Below, piece by piece: positions 5,804 through 58,365 of a stretch of DNA of 64,000 nt (positions are counted from its first letter, which is position 1; the number at the start of each line of letters is the position of its first letter). This DNA comes from Promicromonospora thailandica. GTDB lineage: Bacteria; Actinomycetota; Actinomycetes; Actinomycetales; Cellulomonadaceae. Location: the NCBI RefSeq assembly GCF_024171955.1, contig NZ_JAMTCS010000011.1, positions 62,001-126,000 on the forward strand, given 5' to 3'. A program made the translations under genes and the position numbers. Below the pieces are notes generated by a model that was given only the letters and a program-made list of their open reading frames with translations, was not told the origin of the DNA and did no database searches.

Positions 5804-7116
5804 TGACGACGACTCTTCCCGACGCCGCCGGGACCCACCACGAGGTCGTCAGCGGCGACCTGCTGCGCTTCGCCACGGCGGGCTCGGTCGACGACGGCAA
5901 GTCGACGCTGATCGGCCGCCTGCTGTTCGACAGCAAGTCGATCTTCGCCGACCAGCTCGAGTCGGTGGAGCAGGTCAGCAAGGACCGCGGCAACGACTAC
6001 GCGGACCTCTCGCTCCTGACGGACGGCCTGCGCGCCGAGCGGGAGCAGGGCATCACCATCGACGTGGCCTACCGCTACTTCGCGACGCCCAAGCGCAAGT
6101 TCATCATCGCGGACACCCCGGGCCACATCCAGTACACGCGGAACATGGTCACGGGCGCCTCGACGGCGGACGTCGCGCTCATCCTCGTGGACGCGCGCAA
6201 GGGCGTCGTCGAGCAGTCGCGCCGGCACACGTTCCTGGCGACGCTGCTGGGCGTGCCCCACGTCGTCGTCTGCGTGAACAAGATGGACCTGGTCGACTAC
6301 GACGAGGCCGTGTTCGAGAACATCCGCAAGGAGTTCACGGAGTTCGCGAGCCGGCTGCGCGTGCCCGACCTGACCTTCATCCCCGTGTCCGCCCTGGCGG
6401 GCGACAACGTGGTCACGCGCTCCGAGAACATGCAGTGGTTCGACGGCTCGCCGCTGCTCAGCCACCTGGAGCGGCTGCACGTGGCCTCCGACCGCAACCT
6501 GGTCGACGTGCGGTTCCCGGTGCAGTACGTGATCCGGCCGCAGCAGAACGACGCGCGCGACTACCGCGGCTACGCGGGCACCGTGGCGTCCGGGGTCATG
6601 AAGCCGGGCGACCGGGTGCTGGCCCTGCCCGCGGGCCTGGAGACCACCATCGCGTCCATCGACACGGCGGACGGCCCGGTCGACGAGGCCTTCCCGCCGA
6701 TGTCCGTGACGGTGCGCCTGGCGGACGAGATCGACATCTCGCGCGGCGACATGATCTGCCGCCCGAACAACGCCCCGACGGTGACGCAGGACGTCGACGC
6801 CCAGATCTGCTGGATGGACGAGTCCGCCTCGCTGGTGCAGGGCAAGAAGTACGCGATCAAGCACACCACCCGGTGGGCGCGCGCGATGGTGAAGAACATC
6901 AACTACCGCGTCGACGTGAACACGCTGCACCGCGACGAGGACGCCACGGAGATCAAGCTCAACGAGATCGCCCGCATCCGCCTGCGCGTCACCCAGCCGC
7001 TGTTCGTGGACCCGTACCAGGCCAACCGGCAGACCGGCGCCTTCATCCTCGTGGACGAGGCCACCAACAAGACGGTCGCCGCGGGCATGATCGGCGGGAC
7101 GGCGCACCAGTACTGA
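5803..7116 (+). CDS. cysN: sulfate adenylyltransferase subunit 1 (GTPase CysN)
   Basis: The GTPase subunit that drives APS synthesis by CysD. The 437-residue protein shows the translational-GTPase motifs in order: G1 GSVDDGKST near residue 24, switch and G2 region EREQGITIDVAYRYF, G3 DTPGH, G4 NKMD, followed by beta-barrel domains. There is no C-terminal CysC extension, consistent with a separate APS kinase gene in the divergent arm. The ATG shares bases with the cysD stop (TGATG), so it should be coupled to cysD translation. A strong hairpin lies 14 bp beyond the stop, ending the cysQDN unit. Confidence 0.95.
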   Translation: MTTTLPDAAGTHHEVVSGDLLRFATAGSVDDGKSTLIGRLLFDSKSIFADQLESVEQVSKDRGNDYADLSLLTDGLRAEREQGITIDVAYRYFATPKRKFIIADTPGHIQYTRNMVTGASTADVALILVDARKGVVEQSRRHTFLATLLGVPHVVVCVNKMDLVDYDEAVFENIRKEFTEFASRLRVPDLTFIPVSALAGDNVVTRSENMQWFDGSPLLSHLERLHVASDRNLVDVRFPVQYVIRPQQNDARDYRGYAGTVASGVMKPGDRVLALPAGLETTIASIDTADGPVDEAFPPMSVTVRLADEIDISRGDMICRPNNAPTVTQDVDAQICWMDESASLVQGKKYAIKHTTRWARAMVKNINYRVDVNTLHRDEDATEIKLNEIARIRLRVTQPLFVDPYQANRQTGAFILVDEATNKTVAAGMIGGTAHQY

Positions 7117-9417: not shown

Positions 9418-9484
9418 CCCGCTGAGTGCGGGATCTTCGCCCTCCCGAAGCCGCGCAGAGGGCGAAGATCCCGCACTCAGCGGG
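9418..9484. repeat. 26-bp perfect inverted repeat between convergent genes
   Basis: Left arm 9418-9443 begins CCCGCTGAGTGCGGGATCTT; right arm 9459-9484 is its exact reverse complement; the loop is 15 nt. It lies 1 bp after the acyltransferase stop and 6 bp before the subtilase stop, so it can terminate both. The arm is longer and more perfect than the window's other terminators and begins in sequence that looks non-terminator-like, so it may be a repeat-family copy. Confidence 0.8.
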
Positions 9485-12391: not shown

Positions 12392-14668
12392 TCACGAGAC
12401 CGCGGAGCCGGTGAACAGCCACGGTGCGACCGACTCGAGCTGCACGCCGATCACCGGCGTGAGTGTACGCACGTAGGTGCTGGTCAGGTGATCGTCGTCG
12501 CGATAGACGAGCACGTTGCCCACCACCGCCGAGCACGTCACCGGACCACAGATCGCGTCGGTCAGGTCGAGGTGCACGGCCGAGGCGGGTACGCCGTCCG
12601 CCGTGGTCAGGGGTGAGACGGCGGCGAGCTGTTCCGCACGGGGGCGGCCGCAGGCGTCGGGGATGTTCTCGCTCTCCAGGCAGACGGGCACGAACCACTC
12701 GAACCGCGGGTTGTCCCGGACGGTGACCACGCGCACCCCGGCGTCGGCCAGCACGCGCCACGCCCCGGCCTGGCCGGGCAGGACGCGTTCGGGCGACCCG
12801 TCCTCGAAGGTGTGCGTACCTACCACGACGACGGCGTCGGGCCGCGCCGCTACGAGCGCGTCCAGCGCCCGCTCGTTCCACGCGGCGCACGACGGCGGGT
12901 AGGGCAGGCCGCCCTCGCCGGACGTCGCCAGCCGGCAGCCCTGCGTGAGCATCTCGCGCAGCTCCCAGCCGTGCTCGCGGGCGAGCGCCGCGAACGCCTC
13001 CTGGTACTGGAGCTCGTGCGAGGCCCCCACCAGGTAGACGACGGCGGAGGGGTGGTCCTGTCGCACGACCGCGCAGTCCAGGAGCTCGGACCGGTCGGTG
13101 TCCTGGGGGCAGGCGGCCGGCGGGCGGTCGTCGGCGGCCGCCCAGGTCGCGGGACGGAAGGGGGCCGACGGCGTGACCCCGAGCGCGGCGTCCGGCCCGA
13201 GGGCTGCCGCGCCGGGGTGGTCGGGCGACGGCACGCGCAGGCCGGCGACGTCGTGCCGCGCCGCGGCGTCGTGCGCGGCGGCCGCCGCCTGGGTGCAGCC
13301 GAGGAGGAGCAGGGCGCCGCCGGCCAGGGCCGCGGAGACCCACCGCGCGGGCGGTGCGGCGCCGGTCGGCGCGGCGGTGGCGGGCGGTGCCCCTGCGGTC
13401 GGCGGCGGGTCTGCGACCGGCGGCGACCTGCGGGCCGACGGCGCGGGCCGGCCGGTGGCACGGGCGAGCACGGGTTCGGCGACCCAGCGTGTGGTGAGCC
13501 ACGCGAGCGCCGTCGAGACCAGGAGCACCCCGGCGGCGGCGAGCGGGCCGGCGTCGTCGGCTCCGGTGGCCAGGAGCCACAGCACCAGCACCGGCCAGTG
13601 CCAGAGGTACAGGGCGTACGAGACCCGCCCGCCCCACCGCAGGGGTGCGCTGCCGAGCACGCCCCGGACGGACCGGTCCGGGTGCCGCCGCGGCGAGGTC
13701 GCGTTCGAGAACGACCTGAGGGACCGATCCGGGGCCTCCGGCGCCCCGGAGGTCGTTCTCGGAGGCGATCCCGCCGGGACGGGGGACGGGAGCGGGGTGG
13801 GCAGGAGGGCCGTCAGGGTCAGGAGGGCGCCCGTGACCGGCAGGAGGGTCCAGTGGCCCGGGAAGGCGGTGGCGCCGTCGACCAGGAGGCCCGAGCCGCA
13901 GACCAGGGCGAGGCCGGCCCAGCCCAGCGCGGTGCGCAGGCGGCCGGGCAGCCGGCCGGGCAGGCCCGGGGCGAGGGCCAGGAGTGCGCCGGCCCCGAGC
14001 TCCCAGAACCGCGCGAACGTGCTGAGGTAGGCCACGGGCTGGTCCACGCCCACGAGCAGGACCGCGTGGGCGAACGACGCGACGGTCGCGGCGAGCGTCA
14101 CGGCGGCGACCAGCCGGGCGGGGGCCGGGCGTCGACGGCCGACCCGGGAGCGCCGGGCGACGGCGACCAGGCTCAGCACCACGAGGGGCCACACGGCGAG
14201 GAACTGGCCCAGCACCGACAGCGACCAGAAGTGCTGCAGGGGGCTCGCGGCGGGTCCGGCGGCGCCGTAGGCGAGGGCGCCGCGGACCAGCTCCCAGTTC
14301 TCCCAGGAGGTGGCGGCGGCCCCGACCTCACGCAGCCCCGCCGACCGGCCCGCGCGGGGCGCGACCAGCAGCGCGACGGTGACCGCGCCCAGCACCACGA
14401 GCGCCGCGGGCAGGAGCCGGGCCAGCGAGCGTGCGTAGTGCACCGTCAGCCGGAGGGTGCCGTCCTCGGCGCGGCGCAGCAGCGTGCTCGTGGCGAAGTA
14501 GCCGGAGAGCACGAGGAACACGTCGACACCGCCGGAGACCCGGCCGTGGCCGAACAGGTGGAAGACGACCACCAGCAGCAGGGCGAGCCCGCGCAGCCCG
14601 TCGACGGCCGCGACCCGCCCACCGCGCACGGGTTCGCGGGGGCGGGTCGCGCCTGTCGTGGAGACCAC
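12392..14668 (-). CDS. acyltransferase-3 / SGNH fusion protein with variant GASH motif
   Basis: A 758-residue paralogue-like partner of the 7206-9416 protein. The AT3 domain opens with DGLRGLALLLVVVFHLFGHG, and the SGNH domain ends with YRDDDHLTSTY. Block I of SGNH reads GASH instead of GDSH: the Ser is kept but the Asp is Ala. Between two membrane helices there is a hydrophilic stretch (GSPPRTTSGAPEAPDRSLRS and following, to PDRSVRG) encoded by the inverted repeat at 13669-13761 and absent from the sister protein. A second Pro/Ala-rich linker joins the domains. The GTG at 14668 follows TAGCCT by 6 nt and lacks a ribosome site, suggesting a leaderless mRNA. Likely acceptor: cell-surface glycan. 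Confidence 0.88.
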   Translation of the reverse strand: MVSTTGATRPREPVRGGRVAAVDGLRGLALLLVVVFHLFGHGRVSGGVDVFLVLSGYFATSTLLRRAEDGTLRLTVHYARSLARLLPAALVVLGAVTVALLVAPRAGRSAGLREVGAAATSWENWELVRGALAYGAAGPAASPLQHFWSLSVLGQFLAVWPLVVLSLVAVARRSRVGRRRPAPARLVAAVTLAATVASFAHAVLLVGVDQPVAYLSTFARFWELGAGALLALAPGLPGRLPGRLRTALGWAGLALVCGSGLLVDGATAFPGHWTLLPVTGALLTLTALLPTPLPSPVPAGSPPRTTSGAPEAPDRSLRSFSNATSPRRHPDRSVRGVLGSAPLRWGGRVSYALYLWHWPVLVLWLLATGADDAGPLAAAGVLLVSTALAWLTTRWVAEPVLARATGRPAPSARRSPPVADPPPTAGAPPATAAPTGAAPPARWVSAALAGGALLLLGCTQAAAAAHDAAARHDVAGLRVPSPDHPGAAALGPDAALGVTPSAPFRPATWAAADDRPPAACPQDTDRSELLDCAVVRQDHPSAVVYLVGASHELQYQEAFAALAREHGWELREMLTQGCRLATSGEGGLPYPPSCAAWNERALDALVAARPDAVVVVGTHTFEDGSPERVLPGQAGAWRVLADAGVRVVTVRDNPRFEWFVPVCLESENIPDACGRPRAEQLAAVSPLTTADGVPASAVHLDLTDAICGPVTCSAVVGNVLVYRDDDHLTSTYVRTLTPVIGVQLESVAPWLFTGSAVS
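13669..13761. repeat. nested inverted repeat inside an acyltransferase gene
   Basis: CGAGAACGACCT at 13706-13717 is exactly inverted at 13750-13761, and flanking bases extend the pairing imperfectly to about 23 positions. Inside the loop, CCGGGGC and GCCCCGG form a second hairpin. GGACCGGTCC (13669-13678) and GGACCGATCC (13721-13730) are near-identical short repeats that give the repeated PDRS in the protein. The whole insert stays in frame with the host gene. Confidence 0.65.
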
Positions 14669-15272: not shown

Positions 15273-15917
15273 GTGATCCACACGACCGACTACGAGATCC
15301 AGGACGAGGCCCGCGTGCGCGACCTGGTCCGCACCCACGGCTGGGCCACGCTCGTCTCCGTGGCCGACGACGGCGCCCCCGTCGCCTCCCACCTGCCCGT
15401 GCTCCTGGAGGACACTCCGGAGGGTGAGCCCATGAGCCTGCTCACCCATGTCGGCCGCCCCGACGAGGTGCTGCACTCCCTCGACAGCGGGCGCGAGTCG
15501 CTGCTCGTCGTGCAGGGTCCGCACGGGTACGTGTCGCCCGGCTGGTACGAGATGACGCCCGCCGTGCCCACCTGGGACTACCTCGCGGTGCACCTGTGGT
15601 GCACGGTCGAGCTGCTCGGCCCCGAGGACACCTACGCGGTGCTGTCCGACACCGTGGACCGGTACGAGTCGGTCAGGCCCGAGCCCGTCCGGCTGCCGGA
15701 CGTCGAGGAGTACGCCCACCGCATCGCCAAGGGCGCCGCCGGGTTCCGCCTGCGGGTGGTCCGCTGGCAGGGCAAGGCGAAGCTCAGCCAGGACAAGCCC
15801 CGCGCCGTCGTCGAGCGCGTGGTCACGGCCCTGGAGTCCGACCCGCACTACGCGCAGCCGGCGCTCGCGGCCGAGGTCCGCGCGGAGCTGGCCCGCCGCC
15901 CGGCCGACGCGCCATGA
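15273..15917 (+). CDS. PaiB-like FMN-binding negative transcriptional regulator family protein
   Basis: A 214-residue split-barrel flavoprotein-fold protein of the PaiB/FMN_bind_2 family. The characteristic segments are WATLVSVADDGAPVASHLPV at the start, SLLTHVGRPDE, the HGYVSPGWY motif, PTWDYLAVHLW, and the closing GFRLRVVRWQGKAKLSQDK. Bacillus PaiB is described as affecting protease and sporulation genes, but most homologues are uncharacterised and may bind FMN or haem. TTCGAT ends 6 nt before GTG 15273 and there is no Shine-Dalgarno sequence, so the start looks leaderless. Its TGA overlaps the ATG of the amidohydrolase (ATGA), so the two are coupled. Confidence 0.85.
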   Translation: MIHTTDYEIQDEARVRDLVRTHGWATLVSVADDGAPVASHLPVLLEDTPEGEPMSLLTHVGRPDEVLHSLDSGRESLLVVQGPHGYVSPGWYEMTPAVPTWDYLAVHLWCTVELLGPEDTYAVLSDTVDRYESVRPEPVRLPDVEEYAHRIAKGAAGFRLRVVRWQGKAKLSQDKPRAVVERVVTALESDPHYAQPALAAEVRAELARRPADAP

Positions 15918-17596
15918 CCGCCCCCCTGCTCCTGACGAACGCCCGCCTGCTCCACCCGGCTGCGACGGGGGCACCTCGGCCGACTGCAGAGTTCCTCACG
16001 CCGGAGCCGCCGACTGCAGACTTTGTTCCGCCGGTGGGCTCCGAACCTGTCAGGAACTCTGCAGTCGGCGGGGATGTCGGGAAGTCTGCAGTCGGCGGGG
16101 CGCTCGGCGGCGGGGTCGTGGACGTGCTGGTGCGGGACCGGGTCGTGGTGCGGGTCGCGCCCGCCGGTGAGCTGCGGGGGCGCGGGGCGGACGGCGTCGC
16201 GCCGGAGCAGGTCGACCTCGGCGGGCGCGTGGTCATGCCTGGGCTCTGGGACGCGCACGTGCACCTGACGCAGTGGGCGCTGGTGCGGCGCCGGCTCGAC
16301 CTGTCGGGGGCGCGGTCGGCGGCCGAGGCCGCAGCCCTGGTGCGCGCCCGGCTCGACGCGGGCCTGCCGGAGCCCGGCACCGCGCTGGTCGGCTACGGCT
16401 TCCGGGACGGGCTGTGGCCCGACGCCCCCACCGCCGCCCTGCTCGACGCCGCGGCGGGTGAGGTGCCTGTCGTGCTCGTCTCGGGCGACCTGCACTGCGC
16501 CTGGCTGAACACGGCGGGTCTGCGGTTCGTGGGGGCGACCGCGCACCCCTCGGGCATGCTCCGCGAGGCCGAGTGGATGCCGCTGTCCGCCGCCGTCGAC
16601 CGCGCGCCCGACCACCTGGCCGACGCCTGGGTGGCCGACGCCGCGGCAGCGGCCGCCGCACGGGGCGTGGTGGGCGTCGTCGACCTGGAGATCACGGACA
16701 ACCTCACGGCCTGGCGCCGCCGGTTCGCGGCGGGGTTCACGGGCCTGCGGGTGCGCGCAGGCGTCTGGACGCCCTGGCTCGACGACGTCCTGGCCGAAGG
16801 GCTGCGCACCGGCGACGTGCTGCCGGACACCGGCGGGCTCCTGGAGCAGGGGCCGTTCAAGGTGGTCACCGACGGCTCGCTCAACACCCGCACCGCCTAC
16901 TGCCACGCCCCCTACCCGGGGCTGGACGGGCCGGACGCCCACGGCATCCTCTCCGTGCCGCCGGACGAGCTGGTCCCGCTCATGGGCCGCGCCCACGCCG
17001 GCGGGCTGCACTGCGCCATCCACGCGATCGGCGACCGCGCCAACACGCTCGCGCTCGACGCCTTCGCCGCCACGGGGGCGCGCGGCTCGGTCGAGCACGC
17101 GCAGCTCCTCGACGACGCCGACCTCGCCCGCTTCGCCGCACTGGGCGTGGTCGCCTCGGTCCAGCCCGAGCACGCCCTCGACGACCGCGACGTCGCCGAC
17201 CGGTACTGGGCCGGGCGCACCGGCCGCGCCTTCCCGTACGGCACCCTGGCCGACGCCGGGGCGGTGCTCACCCTCGGCTCGGACGCGCCCGTCGCGCCCC
17301 TGGACCCGTGGATCGCCGCGGCGGCGGCCGTCAGCCGCACACGCGACGGGCGCCCCGCGTGGCACCCCGAGCAGCGGATCACCCCGGCGGCCGCCCTGGC
17401 CGCCTCGACCGACGGCCGCGGGCTCGTCCCGGTGCCGGGAGCGCCGGCCGACCTGGTGGTCCTCGACGGCGACCCGCTCGCCGCGGTCCAGGACGACCCG
17501 GGCCGGAGCGACGCGGCCGCCACGGCCGACGCCCTGCGCACGATCCCGGTCGCGGGCACCCTGCTCGCGGGCCGCTGGACCCACCGGACGTTCTGA
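15914..17596 (+). CDS. YtcJ-like metal-dependent amidohydrolase carrying a repeat insertion
   Basis: A 560-residue member of the amidohydrolase superfamily (Amidohydro_3, YtcJ-like). Visible motifs are the metal site VVMPGLWDAHVHL, the central LHCAIHAIGDRANTLAL, GSVEHAQLL, and the late LGSDAPVAPLDPW with the catalytic Asp. The C-terminal ADLVVLDGDPLA closes the small beta domain. Such enzymes hydrolyse amides or cyclic amides; the substrate is unknown. Residues ~19-67, between LLLTNARLLHPA and VVDVLVRDRVVVRV, are an extra hydrophilic stretch encoded by the inverted repeat at 15979-16096. It splits the first beta-sandwich strands in a place family members normally do not extend. Start ATG overlaps the PaiB-like stop. 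Confidence 0.85.
   Translation: MTAPLLLTNARLLHPAATGAPRPTAEFLTPEPPTADFVPPVGSEPVRNSAVGGDVGKSAVGGALGGGVVDVLVRDRVVVRVAPAGELRGRGADGVAPEQVDLGGRVVMPGLWDAHVHLTQWALVRRRLDLSGARSAAEAAALVRARLDAGLPEPGTALVGYGFRDGLWPDAPTAALLDAAAGEVPVVLVSGDLHCAWLNTAGLRFVGATAHPSGMLREAEWMPLSAAVDRAPDHLADAWVADAAAAAAARGVVGVVDLEITDNLTAWRRRFAAGFTGLRVRAGVWTPWLDDVLAEGLRTGDVLPDTGGLLEQGPFKVVTDGSLNTRTAYCHAPYPGLDGPDAHGILSVPPDELVPLMGRAHAGGLHCAIHAIGDRANTLALDAFAATGARGSVEHAQLLDDADLARFAALGVVASVQPEHALDDRDVADRYWAGRTGRAFPYGTLADAGAVLTLGSDAPVAPLDPWIAAAAAVSRTRDGRPAWHPEQRITPAAALAASTDGRGLVPVPGAPADLVVLDGDPLAAVQDDPGRSDAAATADALRTIPVAGTLLAGRWTHRTF
15979..16096. repeat. four-unit inverted repeat mosaic inside the amidohydrolase gene
   Basis: Unit 1 GCCGACTGCAGAGTTCCT (15979-15996) and unit 2 GCCGACTGCAGACTT (16009-16023) are both followed downstream by their exact reverse complements, in the same order: unit 1' at 16052-16069 and unit 2' at 16082-16096. 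All four share the core GCCGACTGCAGA. The array is open in the host frame and adds about 45 residues. It is too regular to be ordinary coding sequence. Confidence 0.85.
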
Positions 17597-58116: not shown

Positions 58117-58137
58117 CCCCCCCCGCCACCGCCACCG

Positions 58138-58239
58138 CGCCGAGATAGAACTGCAGCGAGATAGAACCCTGGCGAGATAGAACGGCAGCGAGATAGAACG
58201 CCGGCGGGCGTTCTATCTCGCTGCAGTTCTACTTCGGCG
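58138..58239. repeat. 16-bp tandem repeats capped by inverted copies (secA-hom interval)
   Basis: GCGAGATAGAAC recurs at 58156, 58172 and 58188, with a near copy at 58140, a strict period of 16. An inverted GTTCTATCTCGC lies at 58210-58221. The fourth unit and its inverse form a perfect 18-bp stem (GCAGCGAGATAGAACGCC, 58185-58202, with 58207-58224) and 4-nt loop. The first unit pairs with CTGCAGTTCTACTTCGGCG (58221-58239) with two mismatches in 19. It is AT-richer than the genome and may act as the secA terminator. Confidence 0.85.
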
Positions 58240-58365
58240 GGGCGAGTGTGGCGTGAGACGGGCGCCCGCATGTCGGACGCTCCGGTTACCCTGGTCGCAA
58301 CGTCCCGACCCGTGCGGAACCGCACCGGGGGCGGACTGTTCCCCGAAGACGAAAGCAGGATCGCT

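Follow-up and report, generated by a model that had tools for sequence, protein, structure and literature searches.

The window, a 64,000-nucleotide stretch of Promicromonospora thailandica DNA, contains an amidohydrolase (Amidohydro_3) gene that carries, in frame and near its start, an array of four short repeat units, two in the plus orientation followed by two in the minus orientation (Table 1). The 12-mer cores of these units begin at 15982, 16012, 16055, and 16082, and the amidohydrolase frame is open throughout 15979-16096. The initial annotation had described two units followed by their exact reverse complements in the order 1, 2, 1', 2', and this layout is present at 15979-16096. We also found that the order depends on a single G/C position, which is freely variable between copies; the inner units are complementary there in 9 of 20 distinct arrays, compared to 10.3 expected from shuffling, so the order is uninformative.

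Table 1. Repeat units and related features in the window (G000, the genome from which the window comes)
Feature	Position	Strand	Remark
Unit 1, outer plus unit	15979..15996	+	Core at 15982
Unit 2, inner plus unit	16009..16026	+	Core at 16012, 30 nt from that of unit 1
Unit 1', inner minus unit	16052..16069	-	Core at 16055, 43 nt from that of unit 2
Unit 2', outer minus unit	16079..16096	-	Core at 16082, 27 nt beyond that of unit 1'
Amidohydrolase (Amidohydro_3) gene with array in frame	15914..17596	+	ATG at 15914, stop ending at 17596
Hairpin, another family of the same kind	13685..13782		Same repeat within 1 kb on both sides of G000:C1:324048-325061

The longest exact inverted arm of the array is 18 nt. 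Of 2,000 pieces of 136 nt drawn at random from the window, 9 reach 17 nt, and 1,000 order-1 resamplings of the array gave a longest arm of 15 nt. A chance palindrome was rejected on these comparisons together with the matches elsewhere in the genome described below. A known RNA element was also rejected, as there was no Rfam match in window positions 15500-16700 up to an E value of 1 and the inner arms of the family hardly covary.

The array sits between LLLTNAR, the first conserved motif of the Amidohydro_3 protein, and VVDVLVRD. By hand count, the linker between these motifs is 57 residues long in the window protein and 7 in the G006 orthologue, a difference of about 50 residues; the initial annotation had put the in-frame addition at about 45. 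The extra residues are absent from the other homologues compared, with the exception of Promicromonospora citrea. None of 28 other homologue loci (L100-L127) has a unit core at up to 1 mismatch, and their linkers, judged by eye, are about 23 residues or shorter (about 20 in L123). In P. citrea (L099), whose amidohydrolase is 78 to 80% identical to that of the window, a decayed array occupies this position and encodes about 41 extra residues; its units keep the 30- and 43-nt spacing (counted by hand, as was the placing of the inner plus unit). Since this decayed array is in register, the insertion is older than the split between the two species, and not young as had been proposed. The case named beforehand as pointing to ordinary coding sequence, a homologue with the same residues on diverged, non-palindromic DNA, is thus seen in part: the P. 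citrea DNA has diverged, but its units are still in register.

The start codon of the amidohydrolase gene overlaps the stop codon of the upstream gene (ATGA, 15914-15917), so the spot taken by the array, which lies about 60 nt past that stop codon in a position like that of many other copies, is coding. The LLLTNARLL codons of the window genome and P. citrea differ, by eye, at synonymous positions only, which indicates that the frame upstream of the array is in use. The insertion would have survived because this frame stayed open.

We found 31 matches to the 151-nt array stretch in the window's own genome (G000; 5.38 Mb, 24 contigs). The core GCCGACTGCAGA, at up to 1 mismatch, has 71 matches in this genome (35 forward and 36 reverse), compared to 17 and 21 for the reversed pattern. 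These form at least 15 arrays at ten chromosomal places, with a cluster of four arrays at C5:51.9-53.7 kb counted as one place; this number comes from one core pattern at up to 1 mismatch, so that more diverged copies may be missed. These counts bear out the earlier view of the array as an insertion of a small repeat element. The element is dispersed and REP-like, and the array in the window is one of its old copies. Each unit is about 20 nt long, and the plus units precede the minus units; the fullest common form has two of each, and other arrays have one to four. Direct copies are mostly 27 to 31 nt apart. A distance of 43 nt separates the starts of the inner units in 14 of the 15 arrays, with 42 nt in one, and arrays in Promicromonospora sp. 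AC04 (G007) and Promicromonospora umidemergens (G012) have a spacing of 31/43/31. A strict inner-pair pattern was present in 4 of the 13 genus genomes and in none of the remaining 208 genomes of the family sample.

By a heuristic based on GC content at codon positions, 14 of the 15 arrays are intergenic and only the window copy is intragenic, so the tolerance of coding frames put forward in the initial annotation is not general. By hand assignment, 4 arrays lie between convergent genes, 9 between genes in the same direction, 1 between divergent genes, and 1 inside a gene, with 8 of the 14 intergenic arrays within 80 nt of a stop codon. In the window family, 414 cells of the inner arms are paired, compared to 402.9 expected, which amounts to little or no covariation; for this reason a folded hairpin is not needed in this family, and the unit looks like a duplex site.

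Four arrays of the window family surround the gene G000:C5:52500-53591, the product of which has an AbiEi_4 winged helix and a match to the MTES_1575 REase (E 0.014) that falls short of our profile cut-off. In P. sp. AC04, the orthologue of this gene lies between two complete 31/43/31 arrays. P. umidemergens (L092) has a solo four-unit array at 6716-6832 and no gene at the same locus, where a gene lies between arrays in P. sp. AC04, P. citrea, and the window's species. We found four genes of the AbiEi-type class in G000, and a repeat lies no more than 1 kb from each, on both sides of three of them and on a single side of the fourth. Based on these arrangements, the AbiEi_4 gene with a Vsr-like C-terminal domain is a candidate partner of the window repeats.

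A RayT/IS200-like transposase, the gene that the initial annotation had proposed looking for, was searched for as Y1_Tnp (PF01797; RAYT/IS200); it matched none of the 13 genus genomes and 5 of 14 control genomes, and RAYT/IS200 was rejected as the repeat partner. Among the matches listed for 89 element copies, some of them counted twice in overlapping loci, there was no clean pair of empty and filled sites with base-exact ends, and the amidohydrolase homologues that lack the array are too diverged to give base-exact insertion ends. A plasmid or viral origin was rejected, as a plasmid collection gave no match to the array or to the AbiEi-type protein, and a viral scan with one protein as the query gave no relative.

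We aligned 20 proteins of this type (alignment A1) and searched them with profiles at a cut-off of E ≤ 0.01. AbiEi_4 matched all 20, MTES_1575 matched 9, and DUF559 matched 2; the PADLOC AbiEi models matched 20 of 20, and NCBIfam and PHROGs gave no match among them. One protein (L163) departs from the shared alignment in its last third and was kept as is. Eight residues (E244, D276, E290, D292, H297, D306, Q310, and N311) are conserved in at least 90% of the 20 proteins; we take these to be the motif expected of a Vsr-like nuclease, a domain that is presumably of the PD-(D/E)XK type. In a profile search of the PDB all matches were weak: the N terminus matched "Abortive infection protein AbiGI" (E 0.02) and "Abortive phage infection protein" (E 0.02), and the C terminus matched an "Endonuclease-Like Protein" (E 0.89). 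The founder domain of PF18741 (MTES_1575) has been termed a novel Vsr-REase (PMC3710099).

We scored a gene as flanked by a shared repeat when the 500 nt upstream and the 500 nt downstream had an ungapped match with a score of at least 16. All 53 AbiEi_4 loci listed for the genus were tested, of which 31 encode proteins of 290 to 400 aa; because PF13338 missed at least two genes of this class in G000, the 31 are a subset of it. A shared flanking repeat was found at 22 of the 53 loci; among 210 pairs taken at random from seven control stretches, 4 scored as high. By protein size, the count was 20 of 31 loci inside the 290-to-400-aa class and 2 of 22 outside it.

Relatives of the partner protein of the window family are present in 44 of 61 family genomes and in at least 142 of 296 class-level genomes, a lower bound because at most six candidates per genome were scored. 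With one locus taken per genome, a flanking repeat was found at 22 of 30 loci in the family sample and at 11 of 25 outside the family. Removal of four loci of the window's genus (L208, L209, L210, and L212) leaves 26 of the 30 loci as the set from other genera, and the outside-family set holds 25 of 28 loci after two with short flanks and one without a tblastn match were dropped. In these sets, repeats flank the same gene at 20 of 31 loci within the genus, at 20 of 26 from the family's other genera, and at 11 of 25 from other families, compared to 14, 25, and 1 of 400 cross-gene pairs within the respective sets (Fisher P values of 6e-18, 5e-17, and 3e-14); the P values are optimistic because the loci are related, and the family control of 25 of 400 is high because some of its pairs join genes with a common repeat family. 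When the threshold is raised to 20, the same-gene counts are 16 of 31, 16 of 26, and 5 of 25, compared to 9, 15, and 1 of 400 in the controls. No shared flanking repeat with a score of at least 16 was seen at 11 of 31, 6 of 26, and 14 of 25 genes, respectively.

We also found that repeats were similar (score of at least 16) in 11 of 16 protein pairs with at least 60% identity and in none of 174 pairs below it. The correlation between repeat and protein is confounded with orthology, since the pairs at or above 60% identity are mostly the same locus in different species. In these comparisons, similar repeats occur only with similar proteins, and AbiEi-type genes from further genera and families of Actinomycetes have distinct flanking repeats of their own. 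The pairing of gene and repeat is well supported. At four loci outside the family (L299, L304, L305, and L315), the flanking repeats share GATCA-type cores, such as CGATCATGA and TTGATCAC.

Two flanking hairpins of other families were searched for further copies. Of the 13 genus genomes, 11 have matches to the hairpin next to the G011 gene (L180), and four of these have 80 to 88 when both strands of the palindrome are counted. For the hairpin next to the G151 gene, three genomes of another genus gave 26, 24, and 2 matches. By these matches, both of the flanking hairpins are dispersed. The hairpins have arms of about 20 to 30 nt and loops of about 13 to 16 nt, and in the L180 and G151 families the stems show compensatory changes, with 532 paired cells compared to 499.4 expected and 620 compared to 559.9, respectively, and with 7 and 8 stem pairs represented by two or more Watson-Crick types; the three covariation sets, that of the window family included, comprise 20, 22, and 20 distinct copies that come from several related genomes and hence are not independent. 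The L180-type hairpin nearest the gene in G000 and the copies at the two G000 places that were fetched (L244 and L265) share the stem letters ACCGAGGTT, and G011, G004, G008, and most of the listed G010 copies differ at these letters.

The second AbiEi-type gene, G000:C1:324048-325061, has copies of its repeat in L188 at 2821/2857 and 4817/4853. At the locus of this gene, which corresponds to G001:C272, the gene is inverted in G000 and G001 relative to G002, G003, G007, G008, G010, and G012; in G004, one flank only was matched. The hairpin family at this locus in G000 and G001 is different from that of the other species. A reading of three protein pairs as non-syntenic, and hence mobile, was rejected: the members of each pair share a locus, and between L180 and L194 the gene is inverted there. 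Long-range transfer of the gene is not part of our reading. The loci with inverted genes and the solo array show rearrangement between flanking repeats, and plain homologous recombination could produce such inversions and deletions.

Further repeats were seen in passing. At window positions 9418-9484, a 13-nt loop separates the perfect 27-nt arms of an inverted repeat that has a second copy near L061:13553-13607 (G000:C5); no partner gene was seen for it. At 58124-58253 there is an array of CGAGATAGAAC units, four plus and one minus, with a plus/minus pair at L072:254 and 314 (G000:C7), and this looks like another family of the same kind. In a Candidatus Corynebacterium gallistercoris MAG (L088, L091, and L094), three hairpins on three contigs have CTGCAGACTT in common (GACTGCAGACTT in L088 and in one arm of L091), near-equal spacing, and a core close to that of the window family. 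No relative of the nuclease-like gene was found in this MAG, which counts against the pairing proposed below; an empty result of this kind shows little. A single match in Blautia (L096) may be due to chance.

We propose that the REP-like element family probably belongs with the resident gene for an AbiEi-type winged-helix and Vsr-like protein, in a REPtron-like pairing that involves an unrelated protein. We infer that the AbiEi-type protein copies or moves the repeats. In such a mechanism, the winged helix would bind or read the repeat unit, much as AbiEi antitoxins bind inverted repeats (PMC7319586), the nuclease domain would cut at or near a repeat copy, and repair would then spread, delete, or invert copies, by analogy with the action presumed of RAYTs on REPs though without HUH single-strand transfer.

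The main alternative, which we consider unlikely but worth weighing, is that the repeats are operator or chromosome-organizing sites of an AbiEi-like DNA-binding protein. Such a protein would regulate its own gene and bind many sites, copies would be spread by ordinary recombination, and the nuclease-like domain would serve, for example, in phage defense. This would fit the match of the PADLOC AbiEi models to every aligned protein, the binding of AbiEi antitoxins to inverted repeats in their own promoters (as described in PMC7319586), and the spacing of the hardly covarying window units, about 30 and 43 nt, which is probably near whole helical turns. However, the repeats lie on both sides of the genes, and the settings of the 15 arrays (4 convergent, 9 unidirectional, 1 divergent, and 1 intragenic) and the closeness of 8 of the 14 intergenic arrays to a stop codon (80 nt or less) are unsuited to promoters. 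In addition, the two other families keep long stems through compensatory changes (7 and 8 pairs).

It is improbable that the element is instead MITE- or REP-like and moved by an ordinary transposase encoded elsewhere, with the AbiEi-type gene as a passenger. Dispersed short inverted repeats without a transposase of their own are usual for MITEs, and P. umidemergens (G012) has arrays at the locus without the gene, although relatives elsewhere in that genome were viewed through AbiEi_4 matches only. Against a passenger role, the same class of gene is flanked by different repeats across many genera, and Y1_Tnp, the transposase class searched, is encoded in none of the 13 genomes. That the array is ordinary coding sequence or a chance palindrome would suit its open frame and the extra residues in the sister species, but we give this almost no credence, since own-genome matches down to E 6e-22 lie elsewhere, mostly in intergenic DNA, and the 28 other homologue loci have no unit core and linkers of at most about 23 residues.

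A pairing of the REP-like family with the AbiEi-type gene, as we favor, would make this gene class, flanked by its own repeats in many genera, a concrete candidate partner for the non-RAYT repeats of Actinomycetes. It would also alter the reading of genes now labeled AbiEi or DUF559, and with a single purified protein and a single short DNA the origin of these repeats becomes open to test. More tentatively, and with slightly less than even confidence, we suggest that AbiEi-winged-helix/Vsr-like proteins are a second, RAYT-independent class of repeat-propagating proteins, resident nucleases of Actinomycetes that would each make and maintain a population of dispersed palindromes of their own and act by a mechanism other than HUH single-strand transfer. 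Our literature search, which left most subscription papers and all bioRxiv preprints outside its reach, found no link of AbiEi, DUF559, or Vsr-like genes to dispersed palindromes.

Palindromic repeats are present in many bacteria. As described in two sources (PMC3733652 and PMC8266576), the REP/BIME/REPIN-RAYT systems (REPtrons) resemble the families found here in their short, dispersed palindromes, which are mostly extragenic, downstream of genes, and in inverted pairs, and in having a gene flanked by cognate repeats, with several such pairs per genome. They differ in that the protein here has an AbiEi winged helix and a Vsr-like domain where theirs is an HUH Y1 transposase, in that all 13 genus genomes lack Y1_Tnp, and in that the arrays of the window family have several units around a fixed 43-nt center. 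In two families, 0 of 24 and 1 of 22 copies have GTAG in the 12 nt outside the stem, as do none of nine window-family places. Thus, because the Y1_Tnp and GTAG features fail, we do not file these repeats as members of the REP/RAYT group, although the layout looks alike.

One survey ties a large group of repeats to RAYT and describes a CGTC-tagged group as apparently without a dedicated transposase (PMC3733652). The CGTC-tagged REPs are, like the repeats here, dispersed palindromes for which a dedicated transposase was not found in that account, but their stems are 8 to 9 bp with loops of 4 to 5 nt, compared to arms of about 20 to 30 nt here, and they are mostly from alphaproteobacteria; of the copies of our two families, 3 of 24 and 4 of 22 have CGTC next to the stem. 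Rickettsia palindromic elements share with the window copy a place inside a gene (PMC3733652), whereas only 1 of the 15 copies here is intragenic.

The AbiEi component of the AbiE type IV toxin-antitoxin system is like the proteins here in the AbiEi_4 winged helix, found in 20 of 20, and in the binding of inverted repeats reported for AbiEi (PMC7319586); it is unlike them in that the proteins here have a C-terminal nuclease-like domain and the repeats lie on both sides of the gene and are dispersed. Finally, the matches to MTES_1575 (9 of 20) and DUF559 (2 of 20) liken the C-terminal domain to the Vsr/DUF559/MTES_1575 REases, and on this basis it is a predicted nuclease.
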